Below, in pieces: positions 5,692 through 44,595 of a stretch of DNA of 64,000 nucleotides (its first letter is position 1; each line of letters opens with the position of its first letter). Origin of the DNA: Cloeon dipterum (lineage: Eukaryota; Arthropoda; Insecta; Ephemeroptera; Baetidae). The stretch lies in NCBI RefSeq assembly GCF_949628265.1, contig NC_088788.1, positions 18,042,001-18,106,000 on the forward strand, written 5' to 3'. A program made the translations under genes and the position numbers. Under the pieces are notes generated by a model. That model was given only the letters and a program-made list of their open reading frames with translations, made no database searches and was not told the DNA's origin.

Positions 5692-5935
5692 CGAAATCAT
5701 AAGCACAGTAAAAGCGGTACAGAAAATAAGACAACGTTTTCTTCAACCACTATAAAGAGGGAAGAAACTCTCAAGTAGTACCACGTCTGCCCTAACCCTT
5801 CCAGGTAGTCTCACCTGGGCTAAAACTACCAGATAAACTTCCATGTGGCATTACAATACCTAAATAAACTATCAGCGGGGATTAAAATACCCGCAGATTT
5901 GGGAGGGCTCATCGTCCTTCTAGGCTGATATTGTC
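5692..5935 (+). pseudogene. Decayed tail of array member 3
   Basis: Downstream of the stop the DNA can be read piecemeal as relics of the member 2 C-terminus: LTLPG, LKLPDKLP, GITIP, GIKIPADLGGL and a final LLG stop near 5925. These match LPGGMT, KIPDKLP and LGDLAALLG of member 2 in the same order. Stops and a frame change separate the pieces, so this part is no longer translated as one tail. Confidence 0.7.
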
Positions 5936-6336
5936 TAATTTATTTTATTGAATGATATATTAATAAATGTGCCTACCAAATCTATTTCTTCACTATCTAG
6001 CTTCCAAAAAAGCAAAGACTGACATGACTCTGTCTTGATATGACTAAAAATATACGTCATAGACATTTTGTATCAATTTAATTTTTAAAAAATTTAAGAA
6101 ATCATGAAACTTTTTCAGTAAATTTTACCTTGAAAAATGGACCCTTGCTACCGAATGTTATAGTCGCGCGTGAGCAAGCATTAGTTATAACGACTGACAG
6201 TCGAGTTGTGGTTTCGATAGATAGCGGAAACAACGGGGAAAAGTGGCGCTCGATCTGATACAGAATTTTCATAGAACTGAAATCGCAGTTCACAACTATA
6301 ACGCTCTGGAACACTCCATTATACTATGCAAAAAAT
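5936..6336. other. Intergenic, array members 3-4
   Basis: Holds the AATAAA of member 3 and the presumed promoter of member 4. No TATA or exon is convincing. Confidence 0.45.
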
Positions 6337-7165: not shown

Positions 7166-8025
7166 GAAGGCAGATCAAGATAAAGGTCTCAGGGATGGAT
7201 GCAGAATATGAAGCTTTGTTGTGCTGATTCTGAATTTAAAGCAATTCCTATGCTAATTTAAACAATTGATTTAATGTGGTGCGATGCAAATTAAAGAGGG
7301 TATTGTTCACTGCAAAACTCTGGAAAATCCTTGTTTTCCACGATTTAACTATAACCCTTAAAGATTCATCTATAGTCAAAATTGACCTAGGTCAGACTGT
7401 AAATGTTTTAGCTAAGTGTCTACAAAGTTAGGTATGCTTTTCAAAAAGTGAGGACTGTGAAATCTTGTTTTATTTCCAACAAAGAGTTTCCCCAAAAAGT
7501 GCCAGATACCGTTGGATAGATATATCGACGAAAAGAATAAAAATCTGTTAACAAAATTTTGAAAAAAAAATAGCCAAATTTTAATTGTAGCAAAAGGTAT
7601 TCTTTTGATTATTCCACAAACATAGTAGAACAAATTGTTTAAACTAACAGCTTGATCACTATCTAGGCTACTATTCTAGTAATTTTCGTATCAATCTACT
7701 GCTATTTATTTTGTGTAATATTCAAGGATAAAAGATTCGATAAAAATAATAGACTCTGTTGAATTTATTTTATGGGTTGCTTGTTGGCTCTGCATTAATT
7801 ATACCAAACAATACAAGATTCAAAAATTGAATCACCGATTCCTAGTCTTTACTTTCATTATTTGGATTATTTGAAACTAGGAGCAAACAGGACGGATACG
7901 AGGGACGCGGATTTTTAGGCCAATGGCAAGTAACACCGTCCACCATCATCATATCAATGCTGGTGACGTAAACCAGTCATTCCAGTTTCACTCTGAAATG
8001 CCAAAATAATGAAACAACTGGCGTT
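7166..8025. other. Intergenic, array members 4-5
   Basis: AT-rich. An ATTAAA near 7289 may serve member 4. No exon, repeat or RNA gene recognised. Confidence 0.45.
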
Positions 8026-23033: not shown

Positions 23034-23977
23034 TCAATTGTATCTCTCGGCTCCAGCTTTGGCCAGACGATCAGACATCTCATTTCCATGGTTGTTGGAG
23101 TGGGCTGGCACATATTCCTATAGATTTTGATACAATGAACAGATATTGTAACAAAATTCCAACAGACACTTACAAACTTCACATTCATGCCACTCATGGC
23201 ATTTTTCAGCTCCTGAAACTGCGACTTGTTCTCCACAGGCTTGTTGGCAGACGTGGTCCAACCATTTTTCTCCCACTTGGGCATCCACGCATTCACACCT
23301 TTGACCATGAAGTCAGAGTCAGTGCGAATACAGATTCCAGACATATCTAGAAAATTTGAAACAAAATGAAAATTAATACCAGTTACAATTGAACCATAGT
23401 TGCCAGTATTCCTGACTGCTTGTGTATTTTTGAACCCCTATTTTAGGTAAACAGCAGTTTTTAAAATAATTTGGGGTGGAAGATTATAATGCCATTAGTG
23501 AACAAAAATTATGGTTGACTCGTTAAATTGTCCACAAATAATCAGTTTTTTTTTTAAAAAATGGCACACAATTAAGCACAAAATTTAGGGAAATTAACAA
23601 AAATTTCAAACATTAAGTAACTGTAAAGCTACTTAAAATTAAAAATAAATCGTTCCCATACTTGCATCCTTAGCTTGTTCGCAAGCTCGAGTGGCAGCTT
23701 GGAGTTCAGCATTGTTGTTGGTTGGTCTGGCATTCCCCCTGAGCGGCTCACTGATGTTGCTGGAATGTAAGAAAGATAAAAAATTAGTAATTAATTAAGT
23801 AATTAATTGATAGAGAACTCACTGCTTGCTGTCTGGACCAAAATAGGCTCCAACTCCAGCTTTGGCGCCGGCCCTTCCATTGTTGAGGCAGCTGCCGTCA
23901 GTGTAGACAATGGTGCGGCCTTGACTGTCATATTCGTAGCCGCTGCTTTTAGACCCAGAGCCCTTGCGATAGGCCAT
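23034..23977 (-). CDS. Ribonuclease H1 paralog A, catalytic, without hybrid-binding domain
   Basis: Four exons (- strand): 23977-23823, 23759-23662, 23346-23174 and 23117-23034, phases 2, 1, 0; 169 aa. All four metal-binding acids are present: D27 (VYTDGSC), E70 (NNAELQA), D94 (RTDSDF), D158 (EMSDRLA), together with H148 (VPAHSN) and the substrate loop KWEKNGW. It cleaves the RNA of RNA-DNA hybrids. It lacks the N-terminal hybrid-binding domain and coiled coil found in paralogs B, D and E, so it should be less processive. The MAYRKG start has a good AAAATGGCC context. An in-frame ATG at 24031 adds 18 residues with several basic ones, so a second, perhaps organellar, form is possible but unproven. 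Confidence 0.92.
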
Positions 23978-24881
23978 TTTTCTTAACCAATTTGGTGCAC
24001 AATTCGTTTCAAATCTGTTAAAAAGAATCACAAAATTATAATACAGCCAATAACAACCCAGTTTAATTTAATTTCATGTAGCCTTTTTGCGCTTATGTTA
24101 TAAGAAAAAACTGAGACTAGTAGGGTATAGCTGTTAACATTAAAAAAAAAATGATACGGACACGCCGCGTTTTAAACGAATAACTTAAATTTAATTTAAA
24201 AAATAGAGGATTTAGTTGGCACGCTGATAAAAGACAATCTTAATTTGTTTGATCTCTATAAATAGCATATTTATTTTGCGGGTGTTGAAATCACTACATA
24301 ATATCCCAACCACGACTTCAATTTTTGCTACAGGCAGGGCCGAAGTCACTTTCCACAGCACATATTATACGGACTGAGAAGTCCAGGGTGTCTTGTCTCT
24401 CAAGACTTTCTTTTTTCCTTGAATGCAGATCTACTCTGTTGCGCGCCCACAAACAATCTTTAACTAGGTTGGAGGAAAATAACCAATTTTTGGGTCGTGC
24501 TATTTAATTGGTTCACATAATAATGAACGACCTCCTCTCTACCGCTTTAGAGCTTGTCAAAAGTGGCAGGCACCCCAACTTTGGTCATAAATCTACATTT
24601 GAGCATGTATTATTTTCTAAGAACACACATGTGCATGTCAAATCGGTCTTGAATGGTCCTACAAAATAAAGTCTCTGTGAGGAGAATGCGGTAAAGGAAG
24701 TCGAGTGGCTGGTGTCAGCGAAGAGGAAACAAGAATGAGAAGGCAAATATGCCGCAAAACTCAGCAAGAAGAATAACGAGAGCAACGGGCTGTCATTGCG
24801 TTTGCGTTAGAGTTAAAGGAAAAGGAAGACTATTACGACTATGTATTATATAATTTGTATTAATAATACATTATACATACA
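23978..24881. other. Intergenic upstream of RNase H1-A
   Basis: AT-rich; no exon resembling the other RNase H1 N-terminal exons was seen. Ends at the 119-bp MITE. Confidence 0.45.
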
Positions 24882-25000
24882 TATGGAAAAGCTGCAGTTT
24901 TCGCCGCCGAGTTACAGTTTTCGCCACCCCTACTTTTACATGGGATTCTCATAAGAACTGGCGAGATGTGTAACGCGGCAGAAACTGTAACTTTTCCATA
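24882..25000. repeat. 119-bp MITE, copy 1
   Basis: Ends are inverted repeats: TATGGAAAAGCTGCAGTTTT on the left, and the right end read on the other strand is TATGGAAAAGTTACAGTTTC. The centre is shared, inverted, with the copy at 43186-43304, including CTACTTTTA and TTCTCATAAGAACTGGCGAG. The same length in both copies supports a real short transposon. TA dinucleotides at the ends suggest a mariner-like origin, but this is not proven. Confidence 0.8.
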
Positions 25001-25234
25001 ATATGTGTATTATGTATGCACATAATTACATATGTAGGCAAATGAAATTAAAATTACATAGCGATGGATGAGGGTTGCATGTTTAAAATACATACATAAT
25101 ATGATACATACATACGTAATATGTATGATAACATAATTATGTACATACCTGAATCCTGGATGCGGCTTGTGTGAGAGCTGCGGTCGAGGACACGTCAGGA
25201 CAGAACGTCTGCTCAGAGAATAGTGAGTGTGAGT

Positions 25235-26586
25235 TAGGGTTGGCAATATCAATATCGATATATCAAAAAATTTTGATATATCAAATATCATATCAGTTAT
25301 CATGGCTGATATTTGATATATCATATCAGGCTGATATTGATATCTAAGTCGGATATCAAGGTTGATATTAGTTGACATTTTTGACCGACAGATGGCATTT
25401 TTCATGCCGGTTTTCGCATAAAAGTTTAGGATCAAACTGTACTTTCCGTCCCCAAACATGGGCGTAACCGATATTGTAATTTTCGCAATGCACAAAGGCG
25501 CGAAAAATGTCTCAGCTGATCGATCACAGATGATCTCTCAGCTGTGGTCAGCTTATAGTAGCTTTTGTGTTGAATGAAAATTAAATTAAATTGTTTGTAA
25601 ACAATGGTCAGCAACGTCAGGTAGGTCAGGTTAAACCCTGACAGCAATAAAGGCCCCCCACGCCAGCTGATCGGTCACAGATGACCTCTGTCAGCTGGCA
25701 GTTACCACATTTACTTGTTGAATTAAAATGATATGTAACAAATTGTTTGTAAACAATGAATTTTGATTTGAATGGTGAATAATTAAGAACTTATTGTAAC
25801 TAATTCAATCAAAATGTGTACAAATAACGCAAATAATATTGCGAAAATTGCTCTGATGATGGCATAGCCTCAAATTAAAAATTGAAATACTTCATACAAA
25901 ACAGCTGCTACGATTTAAAGTAATTTCATTCTGATTTCTCTTATGTGTATCTATTAAACTCAATTATTTATTACCAGATGAAGGTTGAAAAGCACATATG
26001 ATGTGGAGAAAAACACCCCAATATTTTAATTTGAAGATAAATTGACGCTCTCACATTATCAGCTGATATTGTAAACATCAAACTTAAAAATTAATTTTAA
26101 AATGGCACAATTAAATTATAATATTTTATTTATTACCTAATAATAGCTATTAATTAATTAATTAGACACCCATGTGGCGGGTAGGGGGGAAGGGAAAGCA
26201 GCCAGATGCAAATTTTGGCGCCATATGGTGGGATCCGACACACCCCCTTCTCAAACATCTGTTTTAAAGGCGCGCAACATTTAAATTATTTGAATACTCA
26301 TCACATATGCCTGTGGAAAACCGCCATTTTTCAAATGTTTTCTTATCTAACCGATATTTATGAAAAAACCGGTGTAAAATGCTTAAAAAATCGGTTTTTA
26401 AGCCTTAAAAATAGCCATAACCGGTTTCGGTTCATCCGGCAGCCATTTTTTGATCATCTGGAAATATCATCGTTGATATATCAAATTCTGATATTTTTTC
26501 GCTGATATATCAGTGATATTGATATTTCAAATATCATATCAAATATCGATAATTGATATTGTTTTTTTCACAAAGTCACAACCCTA
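25235..26586. mobile_element. Non-autonomous hAT element, 1352 bp
   Basis: Begins TAGGGTTGGC and ends CACAACCCTA, and is flanked by a perfect 8-bp duplication GTGTGAGT (25227-25234 and 26587-26594), the signature of hAT transposons. The subterminal parts on both sides are dense in GATATC/ATATCA words able to pair. Inside, an imperfect direct repeat of about 150 bp is seen (around 25500-25600 and 25655-25770; both have CAGCTGATCG and TTGTTTGTAAACAATG). The longest open frames show no transposase motif, so it depends on another element. Confidence 0.88.
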
Positions 26587-26594
26587 GTGTGAGT

Positions 26595-29339
26595 GACTAA
26601 GGGTAAGGGTGAGCTGGGTGAGGGAGCAGTCTGCTTGTTGCTGCTTTTGAAGCGAGTGCCGAGTGGTGCTTGTGCTTGGTAAGTGGCGTAAGTGCTTGGT
26701 GAGGTTGTGCTTGTGCTGTTGCCGACTGCTTTGTTGCTGTAGCCTGTGCAACGTGCTTGCGCCTTGCTAATCTGCTTTTACAGCATATTTTCGGTGTCCT
26801 GTGGTTGTGGTTGAGTTTGGCTTGGCTGATGCCGAATCAAGAGCGAGCAGTTCTGCGCAGGCTGAGTATATTATTTTTATGATAACCACATTTAAAATAT
26901 ATTGCTAGGTTGCCGACTGCATTTTTACGCCACATCATGGATTGCGTTATGTACAGTCTAATCTATGTATGTACTCTTATGTATGTAGTCTGACAATTTG
27001 TCACACCATACATATCCACCACCCACGCCACCCACGCATCTAATCTATCACTGTCAATGTAGTGGGTGCGAGTGCGAGATCTCACGACTGTCGCTGTAAA
27101 ATGCATTCTTCATGGTACTAAAAAATTGGTTCGGGTTAAATTTCCCATTTTGTATTTTGTAGCTATGCAAGCTACTCACCATACTACGTCGTGTTTAAAA
27201 ATTAATTTATTGCTTGGAAGGGACGATGAAAAAACGGAAAAAACATAAAAATGTGAATTTCATTTTGTCACGCTCATATATGAATATAATTTCCCAGTAA
27301 ACAAGCTAAGCCTTAAAATAATAATATACTTAGAGAACGAGCTGCTTTGTTTTCTAAGTCTGTACTATTTAATAGCCTATTTTTTTTCTCAAAAGAGAGA
27401 TGAGTGAAGACTGAAGAGATGAAAAACATTTCCCCCAAGGCCAAACACATCTCGAGGGTTGCGGAAAGTCACGTAACAGCAATACCTCGCCACAAATAAG
27501 TCGGAAAATTTCAAATTTTGAGTTGAAGTTCATTTTAGGTGCCTAATTACATTTTAACTTCTTTCAACCCACATTGCTGACGAAGTATATTATGCATCAG
27601 TTTTTATTCCCGTGCTTACTAAAGAGGGCTAGAGGAAAACTATTGTCGATATATTTGTTTTCCATCTGTCTTATTGTTAGTTAAAGACTTAATAATCGAG
27701 TCTGCCTAATTTTTCTCTTAAGACCTTTCAGTAAAATTCAGGGATGCCGCGTGTAGCGAAGCGTGCCGTACGCTGGACAGACTTGTATTTAATTTGGTAA
27801 TTTGTGATTCCGCAGTTCCAAAATTTAAATTAATAACATTAGGCTTGTTTGGCAAAAGTAAATTTATGGAAATGGCTAATTCCCTGCAACTAAATTATCA
27901 ATAAAATTATTAATAATTGATCAAATTCATAGAAAATGGTAATAATGTATAGGACAAAGAAAAAAAGCATCAAATGCGCAAAATTGTGGAAAACCCCCTT
28001 AAAACAGTTTTGTTCGATATAGTCAGTTTTTCTCACAATCAGGGTTCGTGAAAACCCGCATTTTTTTGGAGAAACCAACAGTAACGCAAATAACTTTTTG
28101 CGAGTTTAATTTTTTTAAAAACGCTATCATATACTTTGCGCACAGAGATACGTGAAAGTTTTGCACTTTTCATTATAATATAGCTACATGTGAGTGAGGA
28201 ATTTATAAATTCCTTCTCTCAAACTTAAACTATTTTCAAGATTTTTATCAATTATATTATTAACTGTGGTCTCTGGCCACGTCAGAATAAATACTCAAAC
28301 AGCCAAGCGAATGCTTTTGTGGATTTTTTTTCACAATTAATTATAAATGGATATTGCGAGAGATTAATTGCCGTGCGAAAAATTGCTAGAGAAGGCAGGA
28401 TTTGAAAATTTGAAAACATTATTGCAAAAAAGCTCCCTTTAGAAAAAAAATCATAAGTTTCATAATTAATATCAGAATAATAAATAATAGGTCTCATTGT
28501 GAGGAAAATTTGGGAGATGTGCAAAGAGCAGCGAGGGCGAGCGCCCAAGGCAGCGGATGTGAAGACATATGTATTAGTTACATGTGTTTTAAAATGACGA
28601 AGAGTGTGAACGCCCAAATGCAGCGTTAAGTAAAAAGGTCTCTGGTGAATGCTTTGTCAAGTGTAATGGCATTTAGATGGAATGTGCTGCGTATGTGAAA
28701 AAACGCAGTCTGTGTGGCAGTAGGGCCGCTGTGGTGTTACAGTCATGAAAACCTCTCCATATCAGTTTTTCACGCATTTATATCCTAAGAATAGCTAACT
28801 AGAAATTTAGGTTTTTATTTAGCACACTATTTATTTATGGAGTTGAAAATCTCCAGCTATTTATAGATTGAGTAATCAAACACAATAATTTACCAGCCCC
28901 GATAGAATGTTTGCCCCCTAAAAGTTTTTACATGAAAATTTTTACCTAAGAAAAAGGTTTTAGCCAGCGTAAACCGAAATTTTTCCATACTATCTATTTA
29001 AAAGCTTCTTTACCCTCTGCTCAACACTTCCTGTGGTCTGTGAATAACTCACCGAGTCCCATTAACACCGCCGCAAGTGCCCAATTCGGCCATCTCATCA
29101 CCTTTCCTCGCCAAGGTCTTTTTATTTGTCTTGAAAGGTCACATCAGAAAGTGACAAAGGCGGTGCCGTGTTGCCCCTACGAGACATTGCCAAAAGCAAT
29201 ATTGTGTTGTGTGAGACTTAAAATTTGTATGCTTTTTATAATTCACTTTTCATTTTTATTCGTTTGATTCTCTAGAATAATACCACGTAACAAAGTTTTC
29301 GTTCTCAAATTCGCACAATTCTCCAGTATCAAGTATCAC
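26595..29339. other. Intergenic with no gene seen
   Basis: Mixed AT-rich and GT/TG-rich DNA between the hAT element and RNase H1-B. Short tetranucleotide runs (ATGT) occur near 26960-27000. No exon, RNA gene or bounded repeat could be supported. Confidence 0.45.
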
Positions 29340-31294
29340 TTATTCTTGCATTGTCGCCTGCAAGGCCAACTTTAGAGCCATGTTAGAGCCATAATCTGTG
29401 CGAGAAATGATATGAGTCTGAAATTAAACACAAGGTAATTAGAACAGTGACGATAACCTTTTCATTTTAAAAGAACTTACCCACTTAACTGTCAAGCCTT
29501 TCTTTGCTTCATTTAGACACATCAATCCTTCCTTCAGAACAACAGGCTGGTTGCTTAAATTTAGCCAGCCATTTTTTTCCCACTTTTTTTGTAACTGAGT
29601 TACACCTTTGAATAAGAGTGAACTGGTTGTATGAATGTTGATCCTCGCAATATCTAGAATGATAAATAATGGCATATTTATATTTGATTATCTCTATAAC
29701 ATCCCGCATTGTAATTAAATCTCTTGGTTTAAAAGGACAGGAAATAGGAGAGGTGTAAATTCACGTTTTCCTATATTGCTCCAGACATGTTTCTTGCTTG
29801 GTGCTTTGCCCATTTAATTATTTAAAATGTCAAAACTATTAAAATAAAAATTGCAGCTTATCTCATTTTTACATGTGTAAAATTATCCTATTTTTAGTCA
29901 AAAAAATATCAAGAGAATTTGCGGAAAATTGAGAATAAATACCAAAATAACTAGAAATTGTCACTCACTTGACAGTTTAGCCACTTTGCAGGCTAATATT
30001 GCAGCCATTGCTTGAGCATTCGCGCAAGTTCTTGCCTTCAAAGGCAGCAATTCACTAATATTTCTAAAATCAGCAAAACAATAATTTTAGCTATTAACTT
30101 TTAAGTTGTATAATATCCACTGCTTACAATTCGTTTCCGTCACCAAAAAATACTCCTAGTCCTGATTTGTTAGCAGGATCAGAGTTGAGCAAGACGCCAC
30201 GTATGTAAACTTTACAGAAGTTTTTGTTGTCATATTCGAAGCTTCCTAATTGTTCTGTATCCCTACCCTCATAATGTTGAGATATTTCTTTAGCTAATGT
30301 AGAGGGGGTTTCTTTTTGAAATCGACTCCGTTTTTGAAGTTTGGCTGCTTCAAATAATGACGAATTTAACTCGCGCTGTAAAAAGAATCTATGTTTGTTT
30401 ACTTCATTTAATCAAGTAAGCTCAATTTACCTCCACTTCTGCTTCAAGTCTCTCCATATTGGTAATCACTTCTTTCATTACATTCAGGCTGTCAACCTTA
30501 TCCTGAACAGACTGAGTAATCTTCGAAATTTCCTCTTTGAGTTCGCACTGTTTTTTCCTCAGCCTCTCCACCTCTTCATTCAGCTTTAAAAGTTCCTCTT
30601 TTGTTAGCTCTTCGGCTTTCTCACTTGAATCTCTTTTACTTAATTTGGGCTTTTTGGACTGCTGATTGTGAGCACTGCATTCTTCAGCAACAGTTCTCTT
30701 CATGGAAGGGGCGGTACGAGTTTCAACAGGCTTAGCTTCTGCTGCTGAATTATTTGCCGTAACTGCTATTTCTTGCTTGAATTTTTTATTTGACACATTG
30801 AAATTTGGCGTGCCCGCAACAACATTCGCATATCTTTTAACATATTCTTCGGCATCTTCTAAAGTCGAAAACGATCTGTGGTGGGAAAAGCTGACTCCTT
30901 TGGTTTGCTTGAGACATTCCTGACTGGAATATTTAATTGTTATTGTTCGCGTGCAGGAGTGAAGTACTTCTATTATGTTAAACTTACTGTGTGGCGAAAA
31001 TTCCTCTTTTCTGGCCAACTCCAACGGCGTAGAATTTTTTACTCTTTTTGTTGCCGACTTGTTTTGGTGGAGTTTGGTTGCTGCTTGACACTGATTTTAA
31101 TTCCTCTGCCTCTGAAATGGATCAATGAAAAATAATATTATGTAATTCACATTAAAAGAGCTTTATCGTTTCTATCTTAATATAATTATAACTAAGCATT
31201 TTCCGATGTTGTGATATATTATGTGCGCACTTTTAGCTTTCTTAGACGCTTTCCGTTTGATGGCTTTCCTTTTCCTTAGTTTTGCTTTCGACAT
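29340..31294 (-). CDS. RNase H1 paralog B, predicted inactive, with hybrid-binding domain and coiled coil
   Basis: Seven exons (- strand): 31294-31231, 31111-30988, 30923-30431, 30375-30128, 30063-29969, 29653-29481 and 29417-29340; 424 aa, open throughout with GT-AG sites. Order: a basic tail (KAKLRKRKAIKRKASKKAK), hybrid-binding domain 48-95 (FYAVGVGQKRGIFAT, QECLKQTKGV, then a FSTLEDAEEYVKRY helix), a linker with a KKPKLSKR nuclear-signal-like patch, a coiled coil about 164-227, and an RNase H fold 280-424. Active-site positions are changed: R286 for the first Asp (VYIRG), Q327 for Glu, T351 for Asp, L414 for Asp; R405 stands where His was. The fold signature KWEKNGW and SGLGVFFGDG remain. 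The Trp that stacks on DNA in the hybrid-binding domain is H63. The intron phases in the RNase H part match paralogs A and E. Likely a hybrid-binding pseudoenzyme. Confidence 0.88.
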
Positions 31295-32291
31295 AGTAAT
31301 TTTTCTATTCAATGCAATAAATCCGGTTGCTTGATTTGTGCAGATAGGTTGAGATCTAAAAGCTCGTCGTTTCTATAAAATTTAAAATCGACTATATTTG
31401 ACCAAACAGTGAGATAAACAAGACACACGACACACGTGTGGTTGTGTACGTTGAAGATGTAGCCGTGCTGTAAAAGTAGGCGTAACCATAACAAAGCGTG
31501 GAGGAAGGTGGCGGTAAGGACTAGAGGGATTTGATTGCTCGCTCATTACGTTTTTATATTGTAATAATTCTTCTCTTCTGTGCCAAAGGAATGATGAGAT
31601 GAATAGATGAGAACTATTGATCCTTATAGTTTCGAACTGGTGGCGGTAAAATTGGGCATAGCTCCACTCCACAGCCAAACTCAATTTTCCTTGTTGCAAG
31701 AAAAGGGCAATTACCTCAACTACTATCATTATTTGGACAGCAAGAATATAAGTGACCATTGAGTGAGCGCAATTTCATTGTCGCCTAAGGACGATTTGAA
31801 AATTTCAGATATTTCAATTCCACGTTGAATTTCTCCATTTCAGTTTTGCAGCAGCTTTTCACTCCTTGAGAGTAAAATTCGGAAAATTATCAATGTCATT
31901 TAATGAAAATTTATAATTATACTAGCATGACAAAATTAAAGGGACTCTAAACTCGGGAATAAACGTACAAAATACCAAATAGTTTAATTGTAAGATCTAA
32001 ATTATGCGCTGAATTATTTGTTAACTCTGGCACAAGTTGGATAATTATCACTTTTTCATTATGACGTGAATCTAAGAAGCTACAACTTTGAAGGTGTAGT
32101 TAGGATAAGTATGTGCACCCGATTACAAGGTGGAAGTAACTGTGATGGAACAAAGCGCGTGCGTTTTCTTATAATAATAATTTTATTGTAAATTGCATTT
32201 TTATTTAAAAAAAATATTAAGAAGTGTTTCTGTCGTCTCAAACTCAAAAATTTCTATGTATTGTTTTGATAAGTCACAAAATGAACCATGA
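31295..32291. other. Intergenic between RNase H1-B and -C
   Basis: Upstream region of paralog B and 3' flank of paralog C. No exon or bounded repeat recognised. Confidence 0.45.
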
Positions 32292-34645
32292 TCATCTCTT
32301 CAAACATTTTTCTGCTGCTTCTATCGCTAAACGCTCGGACATGGTGTTACCACTGACTCCTCTGCTCTTTTTGTAATTTTGGGGTTTCACCAGCGTCTAT
32401 AATTTACAAAGTAAGTTAGTCAAATACACCTCAAAAGTAATAGGTTTAATTTTGGAGCACTCACCCATTTCACCTCCAAGTCTTTTGTGGATATCATCAA
32501 GCGTTGCAGTGCGTCCTTCAAGCTTGGGTTCACAGGCTGGTTGAAAAAATCTTCCCGAACCCAACCATTTTCCTTCCAAATTGGCAGGTCCTTCTTGATA
32601 CGTTTTAGCATTGTTTTACGACTTGAGAAGATATGGATTTTAGGGATACCTGAAACATTTTTTGCAGGGTACCGTAAAAAGGGCATTAATTCACAGAAGA
32701 GGCATAAAGATCATAAGTTCATGTCAACAAATTTTTGAAATTAGGCGTATGTATTCATATTTTAGTGAAAAAATAAGATAAACAATATTTTATTAGGGTT
32801 GCCATTTTTGGTTTACTGTCTGTTAAGAAGCGTCATGTTTAGTTCAATTCCTCTCAATTCCTCAAATAGAATATTTTTTTTTTCAAAATGGTTCTTTGGA
32901 ATTTTGCATTATGAAAAATTACCCAATAATTTGGCCACATTGCAGGCAAGAGTAGCAGCTAGCAAATTTACGATTGTTGGTTTTCTATCCATGTTATTTG
33001 CTTCCAAAAAGTCTTGGATAGGCTCACTCATGTTACTGAAAATAGATAAAAATAGAAGCGTTTCGTTATTTTTATTTTTTTTTAACTATTACACTACTTA
33101 CTATTTGTTTCCGTCGCCAAAAAATACACCAAGTCCTGCTATTAACTTTCCTTGCTGTTCACTAGCCAAAGCGTTTGTAAAGGCAATGCAATAGCCATCG
33201 TCATCATATGAAAAGTCAGTGCCTGTTTGTTCATGCGACTCAACATTGGGCTTCGCCGTCACATCAACAGAATTGTGGTCAGTACTTGTTGGCATCGACT
33301 TCGAAGCTTGTTCCTGAACACGACTTTTAGCTTTGATTGCGATCAGATTAATGACATCCAAAAGATACTTTGTTCTTTGAGCCTGCAACAGAAAAACAAT
33401 GACAAATTAATATAATATAGTTGTTGCAAATAATTCTATTGATTGAAAACTCAAATTTGGATGCAGACCTCCAGTTTTGAGGTCCTATTTTCCACAGCTG
33501 CAATTTGCTCTTTAATCGTCTCCAAGTAGGCAGTACTCATTCGAACTTGGTTCACACTTTTTGCAACCTCTTCTTCAACGTCAGCCTGGGTTTTCTTCAA
33601 CTCTTCCATGCTTGCTTTAATTGTTTTCAAGTCTGGAGCAATAATTTCCTTGATCGAAGGCTCAACGCGTGCGACTAAATTATTTTCAGCTTTTGAAGGC
33701 TTCGACTCCGCTGACAAGCAATTATTATCAACAGTTGTAATTGTTTCTCCTTGAACAGAGTTTTTCTTCTTTCTCTTTTGAAGGGGCTTCTCCTCGTGGT
33801 CAGGAGCAAGCCTCTTCTTCGCGGAACTGGACTGGCTTTCACGTGGAGAAAGAGTGGCAACGTTTTGCACTTGTAGTTGCTCTTGATGAGATCCATTTTT
33901 AAGTGCCTTCTTTTTCTTTGCTTCAAGCTTAATTTCCTCCAATTCTTCTCTGCGAGTCGCAACAACCTTAGTAGCTTCCTTCCTACTGTCGAATTTCTCG
34001 ATGTACATCGTTTTAGCCTTGTATTTTGGTAAAGTTCTCTTCATGTCATCCATGGCTTGTAGAGCCCTGGCACTGTCCAAAAATTAAATAATCAAAATTC
34101 ATCAAACGGAATGAGTTTGAACGAAAGATTTTGTATACCTACAATTAATTAATATTTTTTAACAAAATATGAATGGCTGTGGGTGGGTCTGAGATGGGCT
34201 TGTCACCTCAATTGTCCCCTCACTCTTTAATATGATGTGTATTTATGTTCCAGCTTAAAATTGAGGGGACACATGAGGTGACAATAAACCTATCTCAGAC
34301 CCTTCCTAGATATATGTAGATAATAATATAATAATTATATTGTGTACATCATAAATTATATTGTATGATAACGTCGCACCAGGCGGTTAATCTTTGACAT
34401 GCGGTCAGCCTCATAGCCACCGTAAATTTGGTTGACTAACAAGAAGCTCTGTGTACATTATGTACTCCAAAAAGTACAAGTACCAGAGAAAATAATTAAT
34501 GCCTCTACTACTTGAAACTATCTTCTTCAGTTGGAAACTGGGCACTGGGCAAACGTCAGTATAAAATATTTATTACATACCTGGTGCCGTAGATACGCCC
34601 AGGATGATGCTCTCCGAGAAATAAAACATGAGCTTGCTTCGGCAT
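32292..34645 (-). CDS. RNase H1 paralog C, predicted inactive and most diverged
   Basis: Six exons (- strand): 34645-34581, 34072-33469, 33382-33102, 33035-32923, 32649-32465 and 32396-32292, phases 2, 0, 2, 1, 0; 450 aa. The first exon (MPKQAHVLFLGEHHPGRIYG) and the start of exon 2 keep only the outline of a hybrid-binding domain. A basic linker (KKRLAPD, KPLQKRKKK) and a coiled coil (about 165-223, IKASMEELKKTQADVEEEV) follow. The RNase H fold keeps AGLGVFFGDGN and WKENGW. Active-site positions: N293, N340, S364 and E437 in place of D, E, D and D. There are insertions in the third and last RNase H exons. The donor of exon 2 (GAG before GTCTGC) is weak; its phase is right. Open over 450 codons, so decay is unlikely to be recent neutral drift. 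Confidence 0.82.
34185..34302. repeat. Foldback MITE in intron 1 of RNase H1-C
   Basis: GGGTCTGAGATGGGCTTGTC at the left is mirrored by GACAATAAACCTATCTCAGA plus CCC at the right, with further pairing (CACCTCAATTGTCCCCTCA against TGAGGGGACACATGAGGTG). About 118 bp, able to form one long hairpin. No target duplication could be fixed. Confidence 0.75.
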
Positions 34646-35304
34646 TTTAAAAGTAGTACATGAATTGAATGTTATTGTAGAATTATCAGAAAGCTTGCAT
34701 GTGCCACTAACTCCGTTTTTCCGGTCTTGATTAAAAGAGAGTGAAGAGAGTCTAGAAACTGAGAAACAATATTGTTGTTGATTCGTGTAAGTAGACCCAG
34801 GGTAGACCGCATGCTTATGCTTGCTTGTTTCTTCGCAGTCAGCTGTGTCGTGTGTCGGCGGGGATCGAGACCAATCAGGACTACTCCGTGCTCCTTGCAT
34901 CGTCATTCAAATATCAATGCGCGCGCATTCCATACGAAATCCACTTACTAATTATTGTAACATTCTGCGAGCAACCACTGCTTTTTAACTTCAATCATTT
35001 TAGATTTCAACGTTTTTTTTCCTATTTTGTATCATTATTCATTAATCTTAAACTCACACTTCTTGTTTTGCTACGGAAGATTCATATTATGAGGTAAGGG
35101 TAGAGCACCTTTCAATTGGTGGCCAAGAAGTGTGTGAGCGAAATTAGTTATTTTTCCATGAATAATTTTTTTATATTTTTATATTTTGGTGTCTGGTAAC
35201 ATAAAAAATAATGGATAAAATGTACCAGTAAACTTGTTTGTAATAACTAACATGTTAATTTGCAGTATTTCTCATTTTTAACTTACACATTACACTATTC
35301 AAAT
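34646..35304. other. Intergenic between RNase H1-C and the hAT element
   Basis: Upstream region of paralog C. No gene seen; the last 8 bp (35297-35304, ATTCAAAT) are the hAT target duplication. Confidence 0.5.
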
Positions 35305-35380
35305 TAGTGCTTTGCGCGGGTCGCGGGTTTGAGGGTTGAACCCGCAAAACCCGCACCAAACCCGCGGGTGCGGGTCCAGA

Positions 35381-35770
35381 TTGTCAGGGCGACGTGACCC
35401 TAAGACATCAGTAGCGCGAGCAGTGAAGGTGGACCAGGTGTCGTCACAAATTTGGTGTGACACTTCAACGAAAACACCTCGCCCTTTGGTGGGACACCCG
35501 CGTCATTCACTTCTTGCGGTGGCTGATGTCTTAGGGTCACGTCGCCCTGACATGCTACTGCGCTAGAGCCCCTCACGACCTAGAGTCATTGTCGCTCTGT
35601 CGTCGCATAACGTTTCGCCGCCGCACCGCCGCCTGTCTGAAACGCCTTGGGTTGAAGTGCCTGCAAGAAGAAATGACGTGCCGCAACCTTTCATCTGCGA
35701 TGGTCCGGCAGTGCGCATGGGCGCACAGGTGAACTTCAGGGTAAAGGTTAACACCATTAGGTGGAGGCAC
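35381..35770. mobile_element. Insertion nested in the left end of the hAT element
   Basis: The right end of the hAT element reads GGGTCCAGATTTTGCAAATC without a break. In the left end the same words are split after GGGTCCAGA by about 390 bp. That insert contains a perfect 29-bp inverted pair (35382-35410 and 35524-35552; core CAGGGCGACGTGACCCTAAG) and a GC-rich stretch without known coding content. Its class is unknown. Confidence 0.65.
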
Positions 35771-35872
35771 TACAAGATTTTGCAAATCCAATATGGCGGA
35801 TTGCGGGTGCGGGTTGGTGTTGTGCGGTTTGGTGCGGGTGCGGGTTGACTCGGCAAACCCGCAACTTTTATG

Positions 35873-36314
35873 TAATTGACCAGTTGCATAAACCTTTTGT
35901 TATTAAAGCCGCCAACAGATGGCGCAACCACAGACTTTTTTTAAAAAATTTTTGTTTTAAGCGGTTTTAAGGCATTTCCGATGCGATTTCAGACACAATC
36001 TAGCTATTTTGCTTTTTTAAATTATTTGCTTTTTTTTGACGTGCTGAAAACCAAAATCGGTTCAGCCATTCGCCGTAGAAACGTTGAAACATATTTTTTT
36101 TATTTCAAATAATAGTTTTTCACGATTCTACGGCGATTGGCTGAACCGATTTTGGTTTTCAGCACGTCAAAAAATAGCAAATTAATTGAAGAATGCACGG
36201 TAACTAGATTGACTCTGAAATCGCAGCGGAAGTGCCTTAAAAGCGAAAGTCTACGGTGGCGCCATCTATTGGTGGCTTCAAACACTTAGGGTTTATGCAA
36301 CTGGTGAATTGAGC
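35873..36314. repeat. Foldback element nested in the hAT element
   Basis: A long imperfect palindrome. CCAGTTGCATAAACC at the left mirrors GGTTTATGCAACTGG at the right. Inner arms include AAGCCGCCAACAGATGGCGC, and GCTGAAAACCAAAATCGGTT mirrored at 36139-36166. The outer arm words recur at 50936-51149 and 45630-45710, so this is a dispersed family. Confidence 0.75.
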
Positions 36315-37776
36315 CAAATCTCTGAACTCAACAAATTGTTGTCCAGGGGTCGATGGATTTTGATGAATTTTTTTGCTTTAAATTTGCCCTAATTGAACTA
36401 AAAATCAGTTGAGAAAACCCCGACTTTCCAATTTTTGCGGGTTTTGCGAGCGTTCAAAGATCAAAATCTGGGAATTTTGAGTATTTCATAACTTTGCTCA
36501 GGGTGGTCCTAGAACAAAAATTAAAAACCCCGTAAACTCGTCTTAACGAGGCAAACAACTTTTACATTGACCTCAAGGTGGTAGGTCAAAGGCCAAGGTC
36601 ACAAAAATTAATTTTTAGATTGTAAACTCAATTTTGAAAATGAATATATTGAAATTTTTATGGTACGTATTTTTTGTAAATAGGACCACCACAATCCGAG
36701 ATTCGGGTGTACAAAGTTTTTTTTATCGAGACGGGTGCAATAAAATGCTTGATGAGCACCAAATCTCGAATTCTGCACTAAAAATCTTGTCGCAATTATA
36801 AAACAAAATATAAAATCGAATTATACCCCTTTAGTGCACTTAGGGATGTCGAGAGGAGTCTAACGGTATGTGGTTTTTGAAATTCGGATGATTTGAAGTC
36901 GACATTTTTTGGTCAATCACCGTTTTTACCTACCTCGACAAACAAGGGTTTTAGAATTTTTCATTTTTAATTAAAAAAAATTAGGAACAACGCCATTCCA
37001 AATTTTAACGTTTTTAACTTAATTTATGTGTTCTACAAAACGGTTTTGAAAAAAATAAAAAATTTCAATATATTTATTTTCAAATTTAAGTTTTAATTCC
37101 AAAAATTAATTTTTGTGACCTTGGGCTTTGACCTACCACCTTGAGGTCAGTATAAAAGTTGTTTGCCTCGTTGAGACGAGTTTACGGGTTTTTTAATTTT
37201 TGTTCTAGGACCACCCTGAGCAAAGTTATAAAGTACTCAAAATTCCCAGATTTTGACCTTTAAACGCCCGCAAAACCCGCAAAAATTGGAAAGTCGGGGT
37301 TTTCTCAACTGTTTTGCGCGGGTCGCGGGTTTGAGGGTTGAACCCGCAAAACCCGCGGGTGCGGGTCCAGATTTTGCAAATCCAATATGGCGGATTGCGG
37401 GTGCGGGTTGGCGTAGTGCGGGTTGGTGCGGGTGCGGGTTCAAATTTTGAAAAATATATGGGTGCGGTTTGGGTGCGGTACGAAATAAGCGGGTTCGGTG
37501 CGGGTTTGGGTTGAAAATTTGTACCCGCGCAAAGCACTAATTCAAATGGATAAAGGCTTTCTTCAGCTGCTGTGCCGAGTCAAGTCATTTTGATGGACAT
37601 GGCCGAAATCTTAACCTACCTAATGAGTTAGACTACTATAATATAAATTGGAATAATGATATTGTACAAATAAATGTATAATTTTTCAATAATCTATTTA
37701 TTATTCTTCATTAATTCAGAGTTAGCCAAATTCTAACTTATTAAAAGTTGAGTTTCATAATAGGCACAATAGTTAC

Positions 37777-39551
37777 TCATTCAGCATTTTGCCACGGGAT
37801 AATATTAGCTGCTTTCATGGCCAGCTGTTTAGCCATTCTACAGCCATGCGCATCTGCACCTCGAACGTAAGTCTAAAAATATTGAAAGGGTACATGATAA
37901 TGTGATTGCTTCTAATGTAAATCTTACCCATTTAATATCCAAGTTTTTCTTTGCTTCGTTCAGACACATCAATTCACACTTTTGCCTTTTGAGTCTTGTA
38001 TCAAGCCAGTGACGTCCCTCCTGTTTGGCTGGATTATTTTCAGTTCCAAATCTGTATATCGCGTGACAGTAGGTATGAATGTTTATCTTTGAAATATCTG
38101 TAATGGAAAATGATCAATATTATCAATCATTATTTTCGCAATAAAGGAAATGCGTGGCATTGAATTAGTGAACAAGAATATTTCCCAGATTAATGCTACA
38201 GATATTATTTCCCGATTGACACATTCATATGACTCTGTACTATGAGGAGGTTACATAAATTGTAATCATAACTAGATCAAAATATATTCTGAAAAACACC
38301 AGCTTGTCACATTTTTACTTTTTATGTCCATCTGCACCTCATGTGACTGGAGAGCTAAATTATCATTAGCCTAAGATATAATCAAAGCCATACCCTAAAA
38401 ATATGGAAATATGTACAACTTTTAACTTACTAGAAAGTTTTGACGCATTGCAGGCCAGAACTGCTGCCAATATTTGAGCATTTATTGTATACTTCATTAA
38501 TTCGTTAATCGGTTCGCTCAAATTTCTAAAGATAGCAAAAAAATTATTATGCTTAACAAGCACCCAAGTTGAATATCCACTTACAATTTACTGTCATCGC
38601 CGAAAAATACTCCTAGTCCCCCTTTACAACTAGAATGATTGTTTAAGCCACTTATGTAGATTTTACAGTAGTTGTCATCATCGTATTCTATGCAATCACT
38701 TTGTTTTTTATCCTCATGGTCAGCATATGATTTCACTCTTATTGCTTTTGAGGGGTTTTTGTGTTTTTTCGGATTTGGAGGTTCGGATACTTCTCTTGAC
38801 AAATTCAAATCACGCTGTAATAATGAAAAGCTCATTTTTTTAATTAATCAAGTTATGTAGCTCAAATTTACCTCCATTTCTTCTGCATATCTCTCCAGAA
38901 TGGAAATCTCTTCTTTCAGGATATACAGGCTCTCTGCCTTCGCCTGAATATACTGAGTGATCTTCAAAATTTCCTCTTTGAGCTCGCTTTGTTTTTTCCT
39001 CAGCCTCTCCGCCTCTTCGTTCATCTTTAAAAGTTCCTCCTTTGTTCGCTGTTCAGCTTTCTCACTTGAACGTTTTTTACTTAATTTGGGCTTTTTGGAC
39101 TGCTGAGCACTGCTGCCTTCTTCAGCAGCAGCATTCCTCTTTGTGGAAGGTGGGGTACGAGTTTCAACAGGCTTAACTACTGCTACCGAGTTATTTGCCA
39201 TTTTCTGATTGAATTTACTATTTGACACATTGACATTTGGCGTTCCTATAGCAACATTCGCATATCTGTCAAGATACTCTTCAGCATCTTGTAACGTCGA
39301 AAACGATCTGTAGTGGGAAAAGCTGACTCCTCTGGTTTGCTTGAGACATTCCTGTCTGAAACATTAAATAATTATTATTGTTCGCGTGCAGGAGAGTGAC
39401 TATGTAATTATCAGCTTCATTGACGTTATGCTTACCTTGAGGCAAAAATTCCTCTTTTCCTGCCAACTCCTACGGCGTAAATTTTGTCAATCTTATTGTA
39501 AGAGACTTGTATTGGTGGAGTTTGGTTGCTGCTCGACACGGACACCGACAT
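37777..39551 (-). CDS. RNase H1 paralog D, predicted inactive, sister of B
   Basis: Six exons (- strand): 39551-39436, 39355-38872, 38814-38585, 38525-38431, 38097-37928 and 37872-37777, phases 2, 0, 2, 1, 0; 396 aa. Hybrid-binding domain at about 24-70 (KIYAVGVGRKRGIFAS, QECLKQTRGV, then FSTLQDAEEYLDRY), linker with KKPKLSKKR, coiled coil about 135-200 nearly collinear with that of paralog B, RNase H fold about 243-396. Active-site positions: S255 (IYISG), Q294, Y318 and K380 in place of D, E, D, D. The GW of the substrate loop is lost as well. The hybrid-binding Trp is R39. It shares SVSSSNQTPP near its start with B but lacks B's basic N-terminal exon. Open over all 396 codons. Confidence 0.88.
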
Positions 39552-40476
39552 AATAATCTTACTATTCAATGCAATTTTATGTTGTACCTTTTATGTGCAG
39601 ATTAGTAGAGCTTTAGTACATAGTTAATTAAATGGGATTTTGATCCAATGAATACAAACGTCTGGATGATCAAAGAATCAAAAAGCGAGTCAATGAACCA
39701 AGCTCAAGCATCCAGGCAAAAGCAAGACACACATATGCATGTGCATGTGGGCGTAACCATAATAAAGAGCGGTAACGGACGGAGCGGGAAGACTGAAAAT
39801 GAGGAACTCGATAAAACAACAACTACTATTATACTATAATATTAATCAATACATAATTATTATTGCTTTATGGCGCCAGAGATAATGGGGAACGAGCAGA
39901 AAGTTGTTCGATTGTAAGAAGCTACTCGAGGAATTTTTGAAAAAATAGACTTCCATTCAATGACCGCTCTTTAACAGGAAAATTTAAAGTTAATTAGAAA
40001 TTATCGATATTATTAATTGAAACTTTTAAAAATTGAAAATTCGTTTGGTTGTAAAATAATTAGCTTCAATGGATTTAAAATTGGAATAAATTGTTCTCAG
40101 ATACAAAAATCAGATTCAACTGAAGCACTGATTTATTAAGTTTAAAATAAAAGTGAATGAGCAGTTTCGTATCTTATGGGTATCTGGCACGAATGTTTGT
40201 TTTTGGTGTGGGCAAATTATATTAAAACATTTTAAAAGATATAATTGTATAGCTCCATTTTATTTCCATAATTGATGCCTGGTTCCTGTCAAATCATCTT
40301 TGCATTATAAAATGTGATCAACAGTATAGTGATTCAATTTAATCAGGCATGCTCATCAATATAAAATACTGAATTCCTAGTAAAGTAGGTCTTTGAAGAT
40401 CAGCACACAGCTTAGTGGTCATTTAATGGTCAATACAAATATTTTTTTTTTAAATCACTAATTGATCAGAACAGGT
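39552..40476. other. Intergenic between RNase H1-D and -E
   Basis: AT-rich 5' flank of paralog D and 3' flank of paralog E. Nothing further recognised. Confidence 0.5.
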
Positions 40477-42930
40477 TTAGTCTGGGACGTACTGTTCAGC
40501 TCCTTCATTTGCCAGACGATCTGCCATCTCATTGCCATAGATATTTGAATGACCACGCACAAAAGTCTGAAAAAAAAATACATTCTCACTGCCTGATGAT
40601 GGAAACAATCATGAAATGCATACCCATTTGACTTGCAAGCCCTCCATGGCACTCTTGAGCTTCAGAAGCGGCACTTTGTTCTCAACTGGCTTTTTGTTGG
40701 CTGTGAGCCATCCATTTTTCTCCCACTTTGGCATCCAGTTTTCCATGCATTTGATCACAAATTCCGAGTCGGTGTGAATATTCAGTTTAGTTAGTCCTGC
40801 AAGCATAAAAAAGAGGTTCGAGCAAAATACTAAATTTAAATATGTCAATAGACAAATTTTAATACCTATTAGTTTGCAAACATTGCAGGCGAGTGCTGCA
40901 GCCATGATTTCTGCATTGATGTTGGTTGGTCGCAGGCCTTTGAGCGGTTCCTTCATATTGCTGAAAATAATGAAAACTTAGGATGAAGTATTAGACAAAA
41001 AATGCAGTACATTCGTAGAAACTAGTTTATCCATTAAAATATCAACGATTCATGGAACAAAGATAATCTTCATTTCAGAAAGCCAAAGATTATTATTATT
41101 ATTGCACAAGACTGAACATTGCAGATTAGAAGATCAGAAGACTGATTATTCTTGTTTATTCTTACAATGGTGACAATGGTCATATAAGAGATATATAAGA
41201 GAGTTCGAAAAACCCAACCACCAACTACAAATAATTTAAAATATCTAACCATTGAAATAGCTCATTACAGAATTCGTAGAGTTAACTTTAAGATTTACTT
41301 CAAAAATAGTTTAATTCTAATAATCCCTTAGTTGGTTTGATGTAAAATTGCAGGAGAATGAGAAAGTGAAAGGCATTCTGGATTTTGGGACCAGTGTCTG
41401 CAAAAACCTGAATGTTTTCGCTTGAATCCACAGCAACTTTTTCCAGAGTTTTCTGCATTTTTGCGCAAGTTTCCAAAAAAAAAAAAAAAAAAAAAAAAAA
41501 TGAATTTAGTAGGCAATTATGAAAAACTTTTTCAGGCTTTTGTTCATGGTCACTGAAATATGAACAAAATATTAATTTAATAAAAATCAATCTTAGTGCC
41601 ATTGCTTTGGGAAAATTAGAGTGGTAAATACTGGGTGGTTAGAAAAGCAAAGATGAAAACAGAATAACAATGCACTCACTATTTGAATCCATCTCCAAAG
41701 AAGACTCCCAATCCTGCTCTGGCATTCGGCTTTCCGTTGTTTCTGCAGCAGCCGTCCGTGTAGACAATGCAGTAATTCTCATTGTCGAATTGATAGCCGT
41801 GCTCGTTTTCTGTCTCCTCAGTTGGAGCTGATGATGATGATTGATCAGAGGGTCGTGCAGTCTCAATCAGCTGCGTTCGTCTCGGCGCCTGGCATTGCAT
41901 TTGGATGCGGTTCACAGCGTCCTGCAGAGAAACGTCCTTCCCACCATCCTTGTTGCTGATCTGTCTCTCAAACAACGTGATTTGAGATCTCAGAATAGCC
42001 AATTCGTCAGTCTTGACTTGCAAGGTCTGCACGACGTCCTTTAAGCCGTGTTCCAGGCTGGTATACTTGTCTTTCAACCATTTCAGCTCCTTGCGGAGTT
42101 CAGTCAGTTTGTTCCCTTCAGGTTGGTCAACAGCCATCGAAGGCCCGGCCTGTGGCTCCTCACGGAGAATTTCGGCTGCTGGCTGTGGCACTTCGTCCTG
42201 GGGCTCTTCACTTTGGGACAAAAGTTCCGCTTTGACTATTCGCCTTGTGTTAGCGGCCTCGGAAGTCTGAGGGGCATTTCCAATCGGAGGTTGGTTTGAG
42301 GGCCCGGGAGCACGTTCCACAGGCTCCCTTTTAATGGTCTGCTGTGCAGGCCCAATTGAGCCGTCCAAGTCGAGAGTCCTCTTCGCTGTTTTAGCACTCA
42401 GAACCTCATCTAAGAAAGCCAGTCTTTTCTTGACCCTGAAGCGTTGGTCCAGCTCTGCTGCGGTTTGTGTAGAAGAAAGAGGATGCAGTGCAGTAGCAGC
42501 AGCAGCAGGTGGCTGTTGAGTTGCAGTGGCACCACGTTGCGGGGCTGTAGACGGAGCGCTGGATTGCGTTTGAGACATGGTTTGTGTGGGGAAGTTGTAT
42601 CTGTAGTCTTTTGTAGCAGGTGTCATTGCTTGTGATGTTGGACTGCTGAATTGCTTCACATAAGCGTCCGCCTCCACCATTGTGGAGAATTTCCTGAATT
42701 TGGCGTTTTTGTATCCATTAATCTGGCTCTCGCATTCCCTCCTGAAAAAAACACGTGGAACATGAGAAGTGCATTTTACATTTTAAACGAAATTCCGGGT
42801 TATGTAGGGTATTTTACACGCAAAAAGATCATGAACATTTTTCCCTTTAAGTGTATACATACCAAGTTAAAAAAACTCCTCTCACATGTCCCAGGCCGAC
42901 CGCATAAAAACATTTTTGTTTTCCAGCCAT
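40477..42930 (-). CDS. rnh1: Ribonuclease H1, full length and catalytic (paralog E)
   Basis: Five exons (- strand): 42930-42863, 42741-41680, 40960-40866, 40796-40624 and 40566-40477, phases 2, 2, 1, 0; 495 aa. Canonical hybrid-binding domain at 8-55 (CFYAVGLGHVRGVFLTW, W23 kept, then RECESQINGYKNAKFRKFS). A long linker with a coiled-coil stretch (KLTELRKELKWLKDKYTSLE through LAILRSQITLFERQIS) precedes the RNase H domain 340-495. All catalytic residues are present: D352 (VYTDGCC), E394 (INAEIMA), D418 (HTDSEF), H472 (VRGHSN), D482 (EMADRLA), with KWEKNGW. It removes RNA-DNA hybrids during replication and transcription. Human RNase H1 is 286 aa; the extra length is the linker. A possible splice acceptor (TTTTCAG) lies 2 bp before the ATG, so an upstream exon with a targeting peptide is possible. 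Confidence 0.95.
41476..41501. repeat. Poly(A) run in an intron of RNase H1-E
   Basis: An uninterrupted A run of about 25 bases on the + strand, poly(T) relative to the gene. No SINE body was recognised next to it. Confidence 0.8.
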
Positions 42931-43417: not shown

Positions 43418-44595
43418 ATGGCTGCCCTTTGCTGCAGAGTTTTGGCCCAGACTTCTCGCCGAAATGTGATTTATTCCACCGCTAGATACGCCAACAAAAG
43501 TGAGTTTCGATTTAATAATATGTTCTCTTCGTGCCGATTGAAAATTTCGCTCGAAACAGATTGAAATCGGCACAGACACGGGTGGTCACAAATCCCGGTC
43601 GGGCATCGATCGTCTGTGTCGTTGAGAAAGACCTTGCCGGCTGGAAAACTTTATTTCCGTCAATTAAGGGTTGTATTTAGTGAAATAACTAATATCTATT
43701 TCTTTCTGCAGTGATGGCGGATCCATTGGAGCACGCTACCGGCCTTGAGAAGAGAGAACTTCTGGCCGAGGCTGCGGGCAATGATGTACGTGACCCTGTG
43801 CCAAAATTTGCACCGTCCTTAACTAAATGCACCTTAAGAGTCAAAGTCCTCCCCCAAATCAAAAGTATTTAGTTTTAAAGTATTTCTTAAGCCATTCAAT
43901 TCAAGTTGGTTGAAGTTTAAAATCATTTGACCTAGCTTATTCGTATTCTTATCTTGTTAAAAATAATGACTTGAAGATATATATTAACTTCTATTTTTAA
44001 GTGAGGGTTAAAAAGTAATTTTTAGTAGGGAATGAGTAATAATTTCCAGAAGAGTTTTGGTAATTATTCTTATTTTTTTTTAATCTGAACAAAATATTTT
44101 TGCCGTAGCCATGATATTATATTTATTACTTTATTTGGAGATGAGCCATTCAAAACCTGTTTGCCTAAAATAGCAGGTCGCCTTTTATCTCGGTAAAACT
44201 AGTTGTTTCAAAGCAGATGTGCAAAAAAAACTTCATCTTATGTGAACAGGGTACAAAATTGCTTGATTTTTCTTCGAAAGACTAAACCGAAAGTCTCAGT
44301 TGTTTTCTCTTATTTTACCTAACACAACCTCCATTAGTGCATCTTTTACAGTAGAGCTCTTTTTAATTACTCTTATTTATCTTTGCAGAACCCTTTCGAT
44401 ATGAAAATTTTTAAGCGTGGTCCTGGTACCAAGGACAGCCCAAATCTGGTGCCCTCGTGCTTCGAGTCGAGGATCGTGGGCTGCGTGTGCGAAGAAGATG
44501 CTACCTCAGTCAACTGGATGTGGCTGCACCAGGGAACCCCCAGGCGATGCGAGTGCGGCTACTGGTTCAAGCTGACCAAGCGTGCCCCCGTATAA
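43418..44595 (+). CDS. COX5B: Cytochrome c oxidase subunit 5B, mitochondrial
   Basis: Three exons: 43418-43499, 43712-43785 and 44389-44595, phases 1 and 0; 120 aa. The start (MAALCCRVLAQTSRRNVIYS) is a basic, Ser/Thr-containing presequence without acids. The conserved body includes DPLEHATGLEKREL, NPFDMKIFKRGPGTKDSPN and SRIVGCVCEEDATSVNW. Zinc ligands are C84, C86, C106 and C108 (GCVCEED, RRCECGYWFKL). It is the nuclear-encoded zinc-binding subunit on the matrix side of respiratory complex IV. The ATG context is AAAATGGCT. AATAAA at 44754-44759. Slightly shorter than the human precursor (129 aa). Confidence 0.97.

Follow-up and report, generated by a model that had tools for sequence, protein, structure and literature searches.

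What becomes of an RNase H1 gene once the encoded protein can no longer cut? The question is raised by a 64,000-nucleotide window of the Cloeon dipterum genome (Ephemeroptera; assembly GCF_949628265.1, contig NC_088788.1, positions 18,042,001 to 18,106,000), in which five RNase H1-type genes, here called A to E, lie in tandem on the minus strand between window positions 23034 and 42930. A and E retain the four catalytic acids of the family, and the three genes between them, B, C, and D, have lost all four. A preliminary reading of the letters alone (the sequence-only reading) had suggested that the three were kept for a task other than cleavage, such as binding R-loops, protecting hybrids, or regulating the active enzyme. 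We find that B, C, and D form a clade that branches from the E side of the family and is maintained as proteins by selection, and probably two or more of them are functional pseudoenzymes.

Five RNase H1-type genes in tandem

In our gene models, which were rebuilt from the sequence, E comes first in the direction of transcription, followed by D, C, B, and A. Gene E (40477-42930, minus strand; 495 amino acids in five exons, 42930-42863, 42741-41680, 40960-40866, 40796-40624, and 40566-40477) is a full-length active-type RNase H1, with a hybrid-binding domain (HBD), a long linker containing a coiled-coil-like segment, and an RNase H domain bearing the D-E-D-D catalytic acids. Gene A (23034-23977, minus strand; 169 amino acids in four coding exons, 23977-23823, 23759-23662, 23346-23174, and 23117-23034) consists of an active-type RNase H1 domain alone, without the N-terminal HBD and linker, a feature absent from the sequence-only reading. 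The three pseudo-RNase H1 genes are also on the minus strand. Gene B (29340-31294) encodes 424 amino acids in seven exons (31294-31231, 31111-30988, 30923-30431, 30375-30128, 30063-29969, 29653-29481, and 29417-29340), and gene D (37777-39551) encodes 396 amino acids in six (39551-39436, 39355-38872, 38814-38585, 38525-38431, 38097-37928, and 37872-37777); both have an altered HBD and a coiled-coil-like linker. Gene C (32292-34645) encodes 450 amino acids in six exons (34645-34581, 34072-33469, 33382-33102, 33035-32923, 32649-32465, and 32396-32292), and its N-terminal domain has no match to the HBD model.

None of the five frames contains an internal stop, and all introns are of the GT-AG type (23/23; six in B and five each in C and D). 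Intron phases 2-1-0 within the RNase H domain are common to all five genes, and a phase-0 intron just downstream of the coil is common to B, C, and D and does not occur in E. These models bear out the five same-strand genes with shared intron phases, and the intact, spliceable frames of 396-450 codons in B, C, and D, that had been proposed from the letters alone. Their weakest parts are the first exon of B (donor GTGCGC) and intron 2 of C (donor GTCTGC). The former (31231-31294) is an additional exon, 21 codons long and rich in lysine, that stands, with its intron, ahead of the shared HBD exon; the ATG context of B is the same as that of the gene D start, and the extra exon is probably a gain specific to B. 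An AATAAA signal lies 75 to 87 nt 3' of the stop codons of B, C, and D, against a strand density of 0.27 AATAAA/ATTAAA motifs per 100 nt.

We searched the 190-Mb, ten-contig assembly, which has the window on contig C3, using as queries the Pfam models RNase_H and Cauli_VI and three of the proteins (A, C, and D). No convincing match was found outside the cluster, where the best E-values were 3.97 for query D and 0.54 for query A, with none for query C at values up to 10. The search was exon by exon and therefore blunt: the RNase_H model matched exons of A and E alone and was blind to B, C, and D, so strongly diverged copies elsewhere could escape it. With that limit, a dispersed family with further recognizable copies was rejected. 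The same assembly gave no exact match to five TTAGG units in a row.

Loss of the active site and of substrate contacts

Residues were compared by alignment to human RNase H1 (PDB 2qk9), using the human numbering. All four catalytic acids are kept in A (D27, E70, D94, and D158) and in E (D352, E394, D418, and D482), which are thus active-type enzymes by the D-E-D-D signature. The same positions hold R286, Q327, T351, and L414 in B; N293, N340, S364, and E437 in C, the last a conservative change from D to E; and S255, Q294, Y318, and K380 in D. The alignment reproduces letter by letter the retained and lost residues listed in the sequence-only reading. B, C, and D are pseudoenzymes in the sense that homology to RNase H1 persists and the key catalytic residues are gone. 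Their RNase H domains are 43% (B), 41% (D), and 39% (C) identical to that of E, and for all four proteins the best match among solved structures is 6vrd (E-values 2e-46 for E, 2e-22 for B, 6e-7 for D, and 2e-5 for C). The Pfam RNase_H model scores above its cut-off in A (136.4 bits), E, and B, and below it in C (20.8 versus 25.8 bits); D is not listed by this model at E-values up to 1, yet it matches 6vrd as given above.

The losses extend beyond the metal-binding site. At R179, T181, N182, N240, W221, and H264, presumably substrate contacts of the human enzyme, 16 of the 18 catalytic-domain places examined (these six positions in the three proteins B, C, and D) are replaced. R179 has become A in B, M in D, and E in C; N240 has become L, Q, and L in the same order; W221, L, N, and D; and H264, R, A, and Q. 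T181 is kept in B and replaced by Y in D and N in C, and N182 is kept in C and replaced by C in B and T in D. Among further positions, B and C retain W225, and D retains N151.

The HBD has fared similarly. Its Pfam model scores 57.2 bits in E, 48.8 in B, and 47.8 in D and has no match in C or A. E keeps W43 and K60 and has a conservative R at K59. B and D share that K59R and retain nothing else of the trio, with H (B) or R (D) at W43 and S at K60 in both. The N terminus of C aligns poorly with the HBD, and single HBD residues in it are not interpreted. A human protein carrying W43A, K59A, and K60A together with D210N serves as a control that neither binds nor cuts (PMC6868509). At these residues, B and D are more like that control than like D210N, the trapping mutant.

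These observations bear directly on a possible role of B, C, and D in holding RNA:DNA hybrids uncut, shielding R-loops or competing with A and E in the manner of the dead D210N tool protein. The HBD that Pfam still finds in B and D, the arginine at K59 that they share with E, the basic HBD and RNase H domains, and the scattered contacts that survive (T181 and W225 in B, N182 and W225 in C, and N151 in D) all speak for such a role. It is weakened because W43 and K60, both among the residues mutated in the non-binding control, are replaced in B and D, the HBD is undetectable in C, and most of the checked contacts are gone. We regard hybrid binding as an improbable explanation of the set; regulation of the active enzyme, also suggested in the sequence-only reading, may apply. 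At pH 7, the RNase H domains carry a charge of +7.6 in B, +4.1 in D, and +5.8 in C, versus +2.9 in E, and taken with the HBD regions, the domains of the three range from +3.0 to +7.6. Because they stay basic, a looser form of nucleic-acid binding by B, C, and D may persist.

Of 39 columns that are hydrophobic in the human protein, A, and E, 35 are still hydrophobic in B, 30 in D, and 36 in C. Of 24 polar columns invariant in the same three proteins (catalytic acids included), B keeps 8, D 5, and C 8. This comparison is lopsided, since staying hydrophobic is a looser condition than staying identical, and for that reason we give the hydrophobic share at other positions, 28 to 34%. Judged from these residues, the pattern is one of a fold predicted to be kept and a surface changed, with D the most altered. 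In the linker, shuffled sequences reached the best heptad window in 0/200 cases for E and B and in 1/200 for C and D. Residues 139 to 277 of D match the long exon of E at 4e-8, over a span that takes in the first part of the RNase H domain.

Origin of the inactive genes

A maximum likelihood tree built from six RNase H domain sequences (LG+G4; support as SH-like approximate likelihood ratio test, SH-aLRT, and ultrafast bootstrap, UFBoot) places B, C, and D with E (96.8/99), and they therefore derive from the E side of the family. Within this group, B, C, and D cluster together (87.4/82), as do B and D (95.5/98). The ancestor of B and D already had Q at the position of the catalytic E (posterior 0.94). 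A single catalytic loss for all three genes is likely but falls short of demonstration, because the reconstructed states of their common ancestor are ambiguous (E 0.41 and Q 0.34 at the same position).

B and D are not equally related along their length. Exons 2 and 3 of B are 77% and 83% identical to D, and the intron that separates them 77%, but identity is 54 to 64% in the four exons of the RNase H side; the remaining introns are 62, 67, 55, and 51% identical, the last alone being no better than shuffled sequence. Synonymous divergence is lowest in the HBD (0.24), intermediate in the linker (0.40), and highest in the RNase H domain (1.37). The 5' half of B, comprising the HBD and most of the linker (30431-31111, minus strand), is thus closer to its partner in D (38872-39551, minus strand) than the rest of the gene is, the first shared intron included. 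The simplest reading is that these 5' halves record a possible gene conversion or a later partial duplication, with no clean break point evident. A shorter tract links all four genes of the group: a stretch coding for LGVFFGD, together with the following splice donor, at 30118-30164 in B, 33092-33138 in C, 38579-38619 in D, and 41674-41718 in E. It is the sole blastn match of C to B, D, and E (E-values up to 1e-3; 87, 78, and 78% identity over 47, 41, and 45 bases) and stands out against synonymous sites in C that are otherwise saturated. Either a short conversion tract or strong constraint would account for it.

Selection on the inactive genes

If the loss of catalysis had been followed by the loss of function, the coding sequences should have decayed. 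We fitted a branch codon model to the RNase H domain of the five genes (154 codon columns present in at least four of the five) to estimate omega, the ratio of nonsynonymous (dN) to synonymous (dS) divergence. The clade of B, C, and D has an omega of 0.29, versus 0.32 on the active branches (p 0.81 for the difference), and fixing it at 1 is rejected (2dlnL, twice the log-likelihood difference, 42.3; p 8e-11). For the B and D tips jointly, omega is 0.51 (p 0.009), and for the C tip, a long saturated branch, it is 0.09 (p 5e-7). The direct comparison of B and D gives dN 0.53, dS 1.37, and omega 0.39 in the RNase H domain (likelihood ratio, LR, 10.9 versus 1) and omega 0.63 over the whole length (LR 7.2).

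The frames themselves tell the same story. After neutral simulation of the present-day sequences to 0.2 substitutions per site, none of the 400 runs per gene kept an open frame for B, C, or D, and stops averaged 10.1, 8.9, and 8.8, respectively. Even the HBD and linker, simulated to 0.15 substitutions per site, stayed open in 7/500 runs for B and 6/500 for D. Eight of the nine exon gaps between B and D are divisible by 3; the exception is 8 nt at the beginning of the first exon common to the two, which opens with the ATG in D and with an acceptor in B. When it is set aside, gaps are in frame in 8/8 cases in exons versus 3/12 in introns (p 0.0014). The clade is not decaying, since drift would have added stops, exon indels keep the frame, omega is far below 1, and neutrality is rejected. 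Selection maintains the clade as proteins, most strongly in C, and B alone does not show it. The suggestion that the genes were kept for a non-cleaving task is therefore upheld for the clade by its frames, splice sites, in-frame indels, and low omega, and it does not carry over to B taken singly.

Several results weigh on the other side. The B tip alone has an omega of 1.5 (p 0.64 versus 1), above the rest of the tree (p 0.009), and the D tip alone is borderline (omega 0.36, p 0.066 versus 1). The omega for C is soft because dS to C is saturated, as is the dS of B and D to E. Between B and D, the HBD gives an omega of 0.47 that is not significant (LR 1.65), and the linker gives 0.96 with hardly any third-position excess; the linker protein drifts about neutrally, and its frame is nonetheless kept. 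The linker of E, taken alone, is also weakly similar to those of B, C, and D (blastp E-values 0.30, 1.3, and 0.13).

A rival reading is a mixed set, in which C and D are maintained and either B as a whole or the 5' half of both B and D is relaxed or being lost. The elevated B tip and the near-neutral B-D linker favor this view. Against it, the frame, six introns, and poly(A) signal of B are intact, 35 of its 39 core positions are hydrophobic, and the HBD and linker have stayed open in both genes against the simulated expectation; we consider a mixed set unlikely. We disfavor as highly improbable the proposal that B, C, and D are recent pseudogenes still open by chance: the fast divergence of the proteins from E would suit it, but the B-D synonymous divergence and omega in the RNase H domain, the in-frame exon gaps, the stops that fill simulated neutral frames, and the constraint on the clade oppose it.

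A proposed role as protein partners

The explanation that we favor begins with the tandem duplication of an E-type gene comprising an HBD, a coiled-coil linker, and an RNase H domain. One copy would have lost catalysis before B and D split and, freed from its substrate, would later have been duplicated again. The products, if expressed and folded as predicted, would have retained the RNase H fold, the coil linker, and basic segments while the cutting site and most hybrid contacts disappeared. B, C, and D would then serve, without catalysis, as adaptor or partner proteins, binding one another, E, or a partner of E by way of the linker and folded domains, and this binding might tune RNase H1. 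A protein-partner role fits somewhat better because the hydrophobic core, the coiled-coil-like linker, and the basic charge all persist. As a whole, we give this explanation an even chance. Whether the task of these proteins is protein binding rather than hybrid binding is likewise close to evenly balanced. Such a role may include pairing through the coil, either to E or within the inactive trio. A more specific version, in which the three constitute a lineage-specific pseudo-RNase H1 set that pairs with E or with one another by the coil and regulates where and when RNase H1 acts, is a tentative and rather doubtful extension.

Neighboring features

The window holds other elements in and around the cluster. 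Between C and D lies a 2.25-kb insertion (35297-37547) that looks like a foldback-type transposon. Its terminal inverted repeats measure 25 bp (92%), and further large inverted repeats lie inside it (258 nt, 93%). An 18-base piece of its end is present at 26 places in the genome, 13 per strand, a count that takes in both ends of the element itself. On the plus strand, exons at 43418-43800, which lie head to head with E, resemble cytochrome c oxidase subunit 5B on inspection by eye, and because of this placement, the two genes may share a divergent promoter region.

On the far side of A, Kelch (11925-12227) and BTB (14696-15109) matches on the minus strand (11925-15109) are probably exons of one KLHL-type gene. 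Further out on the plus strand (1548-9515) are five adjacent open reading frames, starting at 1548, 3298, 5227, 6668, and 8892, that share by eye a motif of the ISCxGCPxxWxxxL ... CPxCPxxW type. A Pfam scan of four of them gave sub-threshold matches in two and none in the other two, and they may represent an unnamed tandem family.

Relation to known systems

Similar to eukaryotic RNase H1 as represented by human RNASEH1 (PDB 6vrd, 2qk9, and 3bsu), the proteins of the group are laid out as HBD, linker, and RNase H domain. B, C, and D differ from the human protein in lacking the four acids and most of the contacts checked, in having a coiled-coil-like linker, and, for C, in an HBD that is undetectable. 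An RNase H fold retained without catalysis, for structure or regulation, is known from Prp8 and from the connection (tether) of retroviral reverse transcriptase (PMC5603734). Those are domains within larger proteins, whereas this cluster has entire RNase H1-type genes arrayed in tandem next to an active-type gene. Duplicated enzyme genes without catalysis, some with other roles, are described for the pectin-digesting enzymes of beetles (PMC6549527) and for Drosophila pseudoenzymes (PMC12869072). Both concern other enzyme classes, and neither "RNase H" nor "ribonuclease" occurs in the main text of the latter. Some retroviruses divide labor between a dead and a live RNase H in p66/p51 heterodimers, and the regulatory pairing raised above as a doubtful extension would be a division of this kind for a cellular RNase H1.

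Searches of open-access papers aimed at dead or duplicated RNase H1 turned up no comparable set; they took in few subscription journals and in part the best-ranked 12 of 2,644 and 8 of 77 papers. The claim that the set was previously undescribed holds to the extent of this mostly open-access coverage. On that coverage the set is new, and its category, duplication followed by pseudoenzyme retention, is well known: an ordinary event in an unusual family.

Catalytically dead RNase H1 is a common laboratory tool in R-loop biology. Three natural dead versions kept next to the active-type gene would reveal the uses of the fold apart from cutting, and they would tell whether relatives of RNase H1 regulate it. 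If the three proteins are protein adaptors, RNase H1 would join the enzyme families with retained pseudoenzymes.

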